DNA of 32,287 bases from Oscillospiraceae bacterium (lineage in GTDB: Bacteria; Bacillota; Clostridia; Oscillospirales; Ruminococcaceae). Shown piece by piece: positions 16,889 through 20,683 of the stretch. The notes under the pieces are model-generated. The model made no database searches and had not been told where the DNA came from. It was given only the letters and a program-made list of their open reading frames with translations. How positions within the stretch are numbered: the stretch's first letter is position 1; each line of letters opens with the position of its first letter. The stretch lies in the NCBI GenBank assembly GCA_017440545.1, contig JAFSGZ010000057.1:1-32287 (forward strand). The letters are read 5' to 3'. A program made the translations under genes and the position numbers.

Positions 16889-17200
16889 TTAATATTTAAT
16901 TTCGATGTCCACACCGGCAGGTAGCTGAAGCTTAGTGAGTGCGTCGACAACGTCATTTGACGGACGAACTACATCAATAAGTCTCTTGTGTGTTCTCATC
17001 TCAAACTGCTCGCGGCTATCCTTGTACTTGTGTACAGCACGGAGAATAGTTACGATTTCCTTCTCTGTGGGAAGGGGAATAGGACCTGAAACCTTTGCGC
17101 CAGCTTTTCTTGCTGTCTCAACGATTTTCTCAGCTGATTGGTCAACTAACTGATGGTCATAACCCTTGAGTCTGATTCTGATTTTTTGAGTAACTGCCAC
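16889..17200 (-). CDS. rpsJ: 30S ribosomal protein S10
   Basis: S10 sits on the 30S head and also serves as NusE in antitermination complexes. The 103-residue protein begins [20 protein letters not shown]. It has [23 protein letters not shown] and ends with the signature [38 protein letters not shown]-type tail. It is the first gene of the ribosomal run, preceded by a GGGAGGCGATTTAA ribosome binding region and an exceptionally long leader. No tuf or fusA gene lies upstream, unlike the usual str-S10 order. Confidence 0.98.
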
Positions 17201-17559
17201 TTAAATCGCCTCCCTAAATTAGTTGTGGGGCAACGGTTATCAATTCCACTTAGTAAAATTTGCTCTGTTTTTGTAAAACGCCTCGCAAATCAGCATTTTA
17301 CCGTTTCCACGCCGCCGGGTGTTTCGACCCGTGACACTAAAAAACCCGAAAAACTTGCAACCCCAAGTTTTCCGGACAGAACAACATTTTTACCCCCGAA
17401 AACCACAAAAAGCCCAAAGGACCCCCTTGTTTTTCGGCATTACACTAAACTGTGTTCGGTATTGATGTCGCCCGGTTTAAAATCGGACATACTCGGCGGA
17501 AATTACCTGCCATACCGGCAGCAACCTCCCGCTTCATCGCATATCTTGTGCAGTCTCGC
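17201..17559 (-). promoter_or_regulatory. Long structured 5' leader of rpsJ (candidate ribosomal leader RNA)
   Basis: The leader runs from the predicted transcription start near 17559 to rpsJ, about 360 nt, and holds no convincing gene. On the minus strand I can pair: GCGGGA/UUCCGC (17527-17532 with 17496-17501) enclosing CUGCC/GGCAG (17517-17521 with 17507-17511); AUGUC/GACAU (17486-17490 with 17465-17469); ACAC/GUGU (17452-17455 with 17442-17445); CCGAAAA/UUUUCGG (within 17431-17437 and 17396-17402); a terminator hairpin (17346-17375); and CGGGU/ACCCG (17327-17331 with 17316-17320). The density of hairpins suggests a regulatory RNA. I cannot assign it to a named leader family. Confidence 0.65.
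17339..17375 (-). terminator. Intrinsic terminator / attenuator inside the rpsJ leader
   Basis: CCGGAAAACUUG (17364-17375) pairs over 12 bp, one G-U, with CAAGUUUUUCGG (17346-17357), leaving a 6-nt loop. A single G and six U residues (17344-17339) follow. The 5' arm can instead pair, with one bulged G, with the upstream GUUUUCGG (within 17396-17403), which in turn can pair with 17431-17437. That set of mutually exclusive pairings is the layout of a transcription attenuator. Confidence 0.65.
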
Positions 17560-17565
17560 TTGATT

Positions 17566-17594
17566 ATTATACTATACCAATAAAAAAAATGCAA
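17566..17594 (-). promoter_or_regulatory. Sigma-A promoter of the S10-spc-alpha run
   Basis: On the minus strand TTGCAT (17589-17594) is followed after 17 bp by a perfect TATAAT (17566-17571). The predicted transcription start is about 17559. No other strong promoter lies before rpsJ. Confidence 0.88.
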
Positions 17595-17643
17595 GCTTTT
17601 TTTTAGAAAATCGAGAGAATTTTTAAGGAAAATTTTGTATATA

Positions 17644-17698
17644 TTGCACAAATAAATTTTCTGCTATTTTGGTCTTAAATTCTGTCATTTGCACAAAT
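17644..17698. repeat. Pair of direct repeats in the divergent promoter spacer
   Basis: TTGCACAAAT occurs at 17644-17653 and again at 17689-17698, 45 bp apart, between the rpsJ promoter and the plus-strand promoter. The rest of the gene-free stretch 17201-17780 is the rpsJ leader, the two promoters and AT-rich DNA. The repeat could be an operator, or chance in AT-rich sequence. Confidence 0.4.
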
Positions 17699-17723: not shown

Positions 17724-17751
17724 TTGACATCATTATATATAGTGGTACAAT
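17724..17751 (+). promoter_or_regulatory. Sigma-A promoter of the endonuclease/phosphatase-family gene
   Basis: TTGACA (17724-17729), 16 bp, TACAAT (17746-17751). It lies 29 bp before the ATG at 17781, with AAGGAG at 17765-17770. It is divergent from the rpsJ promoter. Confidence 0.8.
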
Positions 17752-17780: not shown

Positions 17781-18593
17781 ATGAAAAAACCTATTATCGT
17801 TATGACAAGCAATGTTTGTTGCTGGAACGACTCACATTTTACTAATGATAACCCTCATAATGCTGTTTGCAGAAGACTTCCAAGAGTCAAAGCTCTTTAT
17901 AAGAAATATATGCCCGACATTATCGGAGCACAGGAGGTTACGCTTACTTGGAAGAATTACCTTACAGAAGCAATGAGCGAATATGGTATCGTGGGCGATG
18001 CAAGAGAGGCAATTATAGACCCCGAACATTCTTCTATATTATATAAGAAGGAAAGATTTGAACTTATTAAAACCGAAACCTTTGCACTTTCAGAGAGCGG
18101 CGAGTTTGGTTCACTTGGCTGGGGCGAGGAATATCCGCGAATTTGCACCTACGCTATTTTAAAAGACAAGATAAACGGCGATGAGCTTTGTTTCTTCAAT
18201 ACCCACCTTGCCCTTAATAATGATGCAAGAATAAAAATGCTTGAGCTAATCTTTGCTAAGATGGACAGCTTTAATCTTCCATTAATACTCACAGGAGATT
18301 TTAATACAACCGAAACCTCTGACTCATACAAGCTCTGCACAGAAAACCGTTTCGATGACACCAAATATATTGCCAAAGACAGCGATAGCGGTGTCACATG
18401 GCACAATTACGAGGGCTCTGATTTTTCCTCAAACACCTCGCGCCATCCCGAATACAGAATATCTCCTATTGACTACATCCTGTCTTCAAAGGGCGACTTT
18501 GAATGTTTAAACCACAAAATTATAAGAGAAACGGTTGATGGTTTTTATCCTTCGGACCATTACTTTGTAATTTCAGAGGTTATTTTAAAATAA
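17781..18593 (+). CDS. Endonuclease/exonuclease/phosphatase family protein
   Basis: The 270-residue protein has the metal-dependent EEP fold pattern: N11 in TSNV, E52 in GAQEV, NTHLALNN with H142, TGDFNTTE with D173 and N175, SPIDYIL near the C-terminus and the catalytic SDH (258-260). No signal peptide or membrane segment is seen, so it is probably cytosolic. The family covers DNA repair nucleases, sphingomyelinases and inositol phosphatases; the GDFN/SDH set shows the chemistry (phosphoester hydrolysis) but not the substrate. It is transcribed away from the ribosomal operon from its own promoter and stands in the place usually held by rpoB to tuf. Confidence 0.88.
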   Translation: MKKPIIVMTSNVCCWNDSHFTNDNPHNAVCRRLPRVKALYKKYMPDIIGAQEVTLTWKNYLTEAMSEYGIVGDAREAIIDPEHSSILYKKERFELIKTETFALSESGEFGSLGWGEEYPRICTYAILKDKINGDELCFFNTHLALNNDARIKMLELIFAKMDSFNLPLILTGDFNTTETSDSYKLCTENRFDDTKYIAKDSDSGVTWHNYEGSDFSSNTSRHPEYRISPIDYILSSKGDFECLNHKIIRETVDGFYPSDHYFVISEVILK

Positions 18594-19989: not shown

Positions 19990-20493
19990 TTATGCAGACT
20001 GTTTTTCTGCAATTTGATTAAGAACCATAGCAAGTCCTGCAATCGGGGAATTGAGACTTCCGAGCATCTTTGCAATGAGAACCTCTTTTGAGGGGATTGC
20101 AGCGATAGCATTAACAGTAGCTGCGTCGATTGCAGCACCATCCATGAAGCCTGCTTTAACCGAGAAAACATCACCCTCGATTTCCTTAGCATACTTGCAG
20201 ATAATTCTTGCAGCAGCCATGGGATCCTCTGTGCAAACTGCGAGAGCAGTTGTACCGTTAAGGGTTTCGTTAAGCTCGCTTAAACCGAGATTATCAAAAG
20301 CAAATCTGAGAAGGGTGTTTTTCTCAACAGAGTATTCAACACCTGCTTCACGAAGCTCGCGACGAAGTCTTGTATCATCAGCAACATTGATACCGATGTA
20401 GTTTACAAGCACACCTGCGGGAGCGTTTTTAATCTTTTCAGTAAGCTCGGCAACGATTTGTTTTTTACTTTGTAAAGTCTTTTCACTGGGCAT
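19990..20493 (-). CDS. rplJ: 50S ribosomal protein L10
   Basis: L10 anchors the L7/L12 stalk to 23S rRNA and, with L12, represses its own mRNA by binding the leader. The 167-residue protein has KKQIVAELTEKIKNAPAGVL, then LRRELREAGVEYSVEKNTLL, the family N-domain. The C-terminal helix for L12 binding includes LGSLNSPIAGLAMVLNQIAE. GGGAGGTG lies upstream of the ATG. An L10 leader with a terminator hairpin lies just upstream. Confidence 0.97.
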   Translation of the reverse strand: MPSEKTLQSKKQIVAELTEKIKNAPAGVLVNYIGINVADDTRLRRELREAGVEYSVEKNTLLRFAFDNLGLSELNETLNGTTALAVCTEDPMAAARIICKYAKEIEGDVFSVKAGFMDGAAIDAATVNAIAAIPSKEVLIAKMLGSLNSPIAGLAMVLNQIAEKQSA

Positions 20494-20520
20494 TTAATTC
20501 ACCTCCCGAAATAATACCTA

Positions 20521-20648
20521 AACAAAAAGCTCTTCCCGATGACCTCGGAAAGAGCTTAAATCACGACATAGTGAATTTTTTGCTTCTCCTCGGCCGGCGG
20601 GCTTTGCCCTTTAAGCTATAATGCACCTGCTGTCTTTGGATTGACAAC
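20521..20648 (-). promoter_or_regulatory. Ribosomal protein L10 leader
   Basis: The RNA starting near 20648 contains AAAGACAGCAGGUGC, then CUUAAAGGGCAAAGCC and CGCCGGCCGAGGAGAAGC, which match my memory of the Bacillota L10 leader that binds the L10-L12 complex. It is followed by the terminator hairpin at 20527-20557. The expected logic is that bound L10-L12 favours termination before rplJ. Confidence 0.85.
20524..20557 (-). terminator. Attenuator terminator of the L10 leader
   Basis: A 13-bp stem (20545-20557 with 20527-20539; AAGCUCUUUCCGA against UCGGGAAGAGCUU, one G-U) with a 5-nt loop is followed by a U-rich UUUGUUU tail. It sits between the rplJ promoter and the rplJ ATG, so it must be read through for rplJ-rplL expression. 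Confidence 0.88.
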
Positions 20649-20654
20649 ATATTT

Positions 20655-20683
20655 AATATACACCTAATTTTGCAAGGTGTCAA
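20655..20683 (-). promoter_or_regulatory. Sigma-A promoter for rplJ-rplL
   Basis: On the minus strand TTGACA (20678-20683), 17 bp, TATATT (20655-20660), beginning 15 bp past the rplA stop. It gives rplJL a transcription start separate from the rpmG-rplA unit, and feeds the L10 leader. Confidence 0.88.

Follow-up and report, generated by a model that had tools for sequence, protein, structure and literature searches.

The S10 leader RNA of Clostridia extends beyond its catalogued sensor motif into a predicted terminator-bearing domain

The leader RNA that precedes rpsJ in an Oscillospiraceae genome begins with a catalogued sensor motif, Rfam RF03136 (S10-Clostridia), and continues, as it does in most Clostridia, into an intrinsic terminator, a near-invariant core element and a long-range helix. 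The motif makes up the first quarter of the leader, and these three elements belong to the remaining three quarters, which are absent from the Rfam model. Sequence comparison establishes this architecture, including membership of the sensor family and the place before rpsJ. We think it reasonably probable that the whole is an autogenous S10 leader of a Clostridia type, in which a terminator-bearing domain lies between the sensor and the ribosome-binding site and both termination and translation would be controlled. Roughly one ribosomal protein in two comes from the S10-spc-alpha cluster, whose control is, to our knowledge, poorly known beyond the gammaproteobacteria.

The leader, rpsJ and the S10 cluster all lie on the minus strand of the window, by which we mean the whole stretch of 32,287 nucleotides that was analysed. 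A sigma-70-type promoter (17566-17594) consists of a -35 element TTGCAT at 17594-17589, a 17-nt spacer and a -10 element TATAAT at 17571-17566, and a -10-like hexamer just 5′ of the sensor motif is found in 86 of 99 relatives compared with 43% of shuffles. Transcription is predicted to start near ~17561, which gives a leader of ~360 nt (~17561 to 17201). The initial annotation had described a structured, gene-free leader of roughly this length behind a strong promoter, and that description holds: the promoter is present, the leader folds at -120.5 kcal/mol (z -3.6, with 0 of 100 dinucleotide shuffles as good), and a Pfam search of the open reading frames overlapping it (17153-17563, plus strand; 17445-17651, minus strand) returned zero matches. 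The ribosome-binding site GGGAGGCG is at 17207-17214, in a context, AGGAGGCGA, that is common to relatives. It is followed by rpsJ, which encodes S10 (16889-17200; Pfam PF00338, 3e-37), starts with GTG at 17200-17198 and is the first gene of the S10 cluster, in the order rpsJ-rplC-rplD-rplW-rplB-rpsS. Directly opposite the S10 promoter, a strong divergent promoter on the plus strand (17724-17751; TTGACA-16-TACAAT, with TG before the -10) serves an endonuclease/exonuclease/phosphatase-family gene (17781-18593, plus strand; Pfam PF03372). The window also contains an ordinary L10 leader (20514-20657, minus strand; Rfam L10_leader RF00557, 63.5 bits, cutoff 44), and the 167-aa minus-strand open reading frame 3′ of it (19990-20493) is presumably rplJ.

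The sensor motif at 17465-17545 matches RF03136 over its full length (model positions 1-81; cmscan 52.9 bits against a gathering cutoff of 35.1, E 3.6e-8), with hairpin 1 at 17532-17496 and hairpin 2 at 17490-17465. This match overturns the suggestion of the initial annotation that the RNA might represent a new leader family. Its statement that no S10 leader family was established in Bacillota is also wrong, because RF03136 exists; an S10 r-leader in Firmicutes is credited to Yao 2007, and Eckert and Weinberg 2020 add Clostridia examples (PMC7247131). The idea of a ribosomal-protein leader RNA survives in that the RNA stands before the S10 cluster and shows covariation, but it belongs to a catalogued family and only its downstream three quarters fall outside the model. 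The catalogued RNA and that of the window share the two hairpins, the place before rpsJ and 81 nt that score over the cutoff; they differ in that the model ends at hairpin 2, whereas the leader in the window, as the 5′ untranslated region of rpsJ, runs on for a further ~260 nt (264 nt from the motif end to the rpsJ start). No covariation was found for a basal helix that closes hairpin 1 through pairing 5′ of the motif in the minimum free energy (MFE) fold of the window (z 0.3), and we rejected it. Matches to Drum RNA and isrK in the window were under threshold.

RF03136 occurs once in the source genome and exceeds the cut-off in 48 of 61 near relatives. Named relatives were Anaerotruncus, Marasmitruncus, Ruthenibacterium, and uncultured Oscillospiraceae and Ruminococcaceae, which puts the source genome with the Oscillospirales-like Clostridia. 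Across the order, 107 of 147 genomes were over the cut-off and 131 had any match, and matches were also obtained in two control genomes, those of Bacillus subtilis and Lactococcus lactis. In 52 relatives the motif always lies before rpsJ, with 159-313 nt between its end and the start codon; the extension beyond RF03136 is therefore a property of the group.

Within this extension, a terminator scan identified an intrinsic terminator upstream of the coding region (17339-17375; -15.3 kcal/mol), formed by a CCGG…CCGG hairpin and a U-tract: CCGGAAAACUUG-GGGUUG-CAAGUUUUUCGG at 17375-17346, then a G and U6 at 17344-17339. A hairpin of -8 kcal/mol or lower with a U-tract at the expected place, shortly 5′ of the core, is present in 73 of 99 dereplicated leaders compared with 10% of shuffles; the other 26 fall short of this, and the U-tract is absent in some families. 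The terminator arms co-vary (z -9.9 in the 99 leaders and -5.6 in 46 leaders from other families, by a permutation that ignores phylogeny). Between sensor and terminator is a middle hairpin (17396-17437; pairing probability 0.99 in its outer part) that might be a species-specific antiterminator, as its arms and those of the terminator can form a competing duplex in the window (-11.3 kcal/mol, z -2.4). This duplex is kept neither in a genome of the same genus (leader L003) nor across the leaders overall, and a search for a conserved antiterminator, pairing the middle region with the 5′ arm of the terminator, gave z +0.4 in the 99 leaders. The terminator may therefore lack regulation or depend on the help of a protein, and the lack of a conserved antiterminator argues for a protein-assisted terminator rather than one of the switch type.

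The long-range helix joins the end of the RF03136 motif to a segment shortly 5′ of the ribosome-binding site. In the MFE fold of the window, its 5′ strand (GGGCGACAUCAAU-A-CCG, 17457-17473) pairs with its 3′ strand (AUUGAU-AACC-GUUGCCC, 17228-17248) with probabilities of 0.82-0.95, and the same-genus leader L003 has identical pairs. In many relatives, the pairing is between GGGCGAC…CUGAACAC, made up of the 3′ strand of hairpin 2 plus the bases that follow, and bases after the core (GUGUUCAG…GUCGCCC). We examined covariation with an alignment-free test, which compares the pairing energy of the segments within each leader to that of segments permuted among leaders and ignores phylogeny. Over the 99 leaders, the whole helix reached -18.6 kcal/mol versus -15.2 when permuted (z -11.6, 0 of 2,000 permutations, phylogeny ignored), and the inner part -7.7 versus -5.5 kcal/mol (z -10.5, 0 of 1,000). 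The signal persisted without GUGU (z -7.6) and in the outer part (z -3.6), whereas controls with shifted or reversed segments gave z -0.3, -1.3 and -2.2. A replicate on 46 leaders, almost exclusively from other families, gave z -9.6 with a control of -1.3, again with phylogeny ignored. The several hairpins drawn in the initial annotation are thus partly borne out: they are real, and the checks that it recommended, a comparison with Rfam and a search for compensatory changes, returned the RF03136 match and covariation in the terminator and the long-range helix, but it had not told apart the known motif, the terminator and the long-range pairing. An extra hairpin between the core and the 3′ strand of the helix (GUAAAAUGCU...GGCGUUUUAC, 17273-17301; pairing probability 0.99) is, judged from sequence, an insertion of the window's lineage; the core lies 125 nt from the start codon in the window versus ~70 nt in most relatives.

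The core element itself (17301-17333) is recovered by a covariance model, R1, and contains GAAACACCCGG at 17325-17315, followed by CGGCGUGG. Its consensus, GA[A/C/U]ACRCNCGG, is 11 nt long, near-invariant and located just 3′ of the U-tract; behind it, relatives have NNNN-GUGU and the window has GUGG. This pattern was defined on the order of the window, where it is found in 49 of 52 near relatives, and was then tested on other Clostridia. In a sample of 40 Clostridia drawn by S10 protein rather than by RF03136 (approximately one genome per family), 35 carried the pattern and four of the five misses had a recognisable variant, compared with 1.2% of shuffles. R1 was trained on 58 Oscillospirales sequences with the genus of the window excluded; at E<=5 its sole match in the 32-kb window was the core copy (24.2 bits, E 1.1e-4). 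It also matched, at E up to 1, 60 of 67 loci outside the training set, and in whole-genome searches its top match was mostly the rpsJ leader. Two kinds of further match were discarded: in two of the genomes checked, second matches lying ~5.4 kb downstream belong to the coding sequence of rplN, and of the two additional matches in the source genome, one sits in dnaK. A local ACAC:GUGU pairing within the core is formed in 92% of cells and is invariant, hence covariation is uninformative about it either way.

Several leaders depart from the usual arrangement of the core. Three rpsJ leaders (L211, L231 and L234, of Clostridia families f40 and f74) have the promoter and the core without a recognisable RF03136 sensor, and one leader (L107) has an extra GAAACACCCGG far upstream of the usual copy, before the promoter. 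A genome of the same family (G004) has a second core, GCGAAACACCCGGGAGCGUUGAG, with its own TTGACA-17-TATAAT promoter (L294:700-900), between the preceding gene and rplN, where the RF03136 motif is absent. In some genomes the reach of the core may extend to the spc genes.

As the core is transcribed after the U-tract, it cannot decide termination, and its invariance suggests a putative binding site that would work at the level of the read-through mRNA. In the mechanism we favour, an excess of a ribosomal protein from the S10 operon, putatively L4, would bind the two-hairpin sensor on its exit from RNA polymerase. When the polymerase reaches the CCGG terminator, ~200 nt into the transcript, the bound protein would raise termination and so lower the amount of S10-spc-alpha mRNA. 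On read-through, the core would be transcribed and the long-range helix would close, looping out the terminator domain and returning the sensor to the vicinity of the ribosome-binding site, as in compact Bacillota leaders in which hairpin 2 lies there; protein bound to the sensor could then act on translation too. The protein ligand, the direction of regulation and the use of both control levels are what we infer, and L4 as putative ligand is favoured by precedent only. In the S10 leader of E. coli, L4 with NusA drives termination (reviewed in PMC10931766), and r-leaders in general either terminate transcription conditionally or mask the ribosome-binding site (PMC7247131). The E. coli leader is likewise long and structured, has an intrinsic terminator before rpsJ and may act on transcription as well as translation (PMC10931766), but it has no Rfam or sequence match to the leader in the window, and the comparison with the L4 type covered the presence of a terminator.

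The same elements could also be read as a leader that acts on translation alone, in which the sensor and the long-range helix gate the ribosome-binding site; the terminator-like hairpin would then be no more than a structural spacer, or else a constitutive partial terminator. Terminator-less compact relatives carry the RF03136 motif directly at the ribosome-binding site, the core and the long-range helix exist only in read-through RNA, and the absence of a conserved antiterminator fits this account as well. A spacer, however, would need neither co-varying arms nor a U-tract at a fixed place in most leaders, and we judge this reading rather unlikely. A leader with no protein regulation at all, that is, a long 5′ untranslated region in which mRNA stability or polymerase pausing accounts for the conserved parts, would agree with the lack of sequence support for a ligand candidate: local alignment of the leader with the 23S and 16S rRNA of a same-family genome gave scores equal to those of shuffles, and a likeness to helix 39 of E. 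coli 23S was not borne out by the same-family 23S. We consider it very improbable, given that family-wide restriction to rpsJ leaders, a deeply conserved fold and two invariant sites are the usual signs of an r-leader (PMC7247131). That the core instead encodes a short leader peptide (M-x-x-x-E-T-P/H-G-x-V in several leaders, frame GAA ACA CCC GG, starting just after the U-tract), as a start codon and open frame in 66 of 99 leaders versus 49 and 37 in the other two frames might suggest, is scarcely credible, and a conserved uORF was rejected because L003 has an in-frame UGA two codons 5′ of the core and the core varies most at a second codon position; some third positions are nearly fixed, stop codons fall at unrelated places and the core of Bacilli lies inside a hairpin.

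Both the RF03136 arms and the 11-nt core, here GA[C/U]ACACCCGG, recur in the compact S10 leader of Bacilli. The Bacilli core, GACACACCCGG, was found within 150 nt of rpsJ in all 35 cases, inside hairpin 1 (for example, L133). The two leaders differ in layout: the Bacilli core is placed apically within hairpin 1, with hairpin 2 near the ribosome-binding site, whereas the core of the window, like that of other Clostridia, follows both hairpin 2 and the terminator, ~100 nt downstream of the Bacilli position. Leaders sampled from other classes mostly lack the core, and those that have a sensor usually have it in compact form, adjoining AGGAGG; two leaders have a core-like sequence inside hairpin 1 (L268 and L270) and two have one downstream (L255 and L280). 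These compact leaders end in CGGGCGA directly 5′ of AGGAGG, and the Clostridia domain would therefore be an insertion that separates the sensor from the ribosome-binding site. The Clostridia leader can be read as a compact leader with an insert of ~100-260 nt that holds the terminator and the core and is closed by the long-range helix.

From their shared 11-mer, the cores of Bacilli and Clostridia are likely to be homologous, with convergence as the alternative. We suggest tentatively, and at somewhat less than even confidence, that the core is a protein-recognition module placed at two sites of the RNA, within hairpin 1 in Bacilli and after the terminator in Clostridia, which would make this leader a natural non-circularly permuted regulatory RNA. 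For that class, PMC10085705 reports hammerhead ribozymes alone and calls for further examples. As far as we can tell, the two core positions are new; the sensor was already known. The terminator, core and long-range helix are not described in the literature consulted; parts of them may have been drawn in Yao 2007, in the supplements of Eckert and Weinberg or in a figure of PMC11109978. The motif RLC-47-1 of Peptostreptococcaceae (PMC11109978) is another leader candidate 5′ of rpsJ in Clostridia.

If our reading is true, the catalogued RF03136 leader is only the sensor half of the regulatory RNA. The added parts would give Clostridia a concrete expression platform open to testing, and the ligand search a second near-invariant site; the two positions of the core would represent the relocation of a module within a cis-regulatory RNA.
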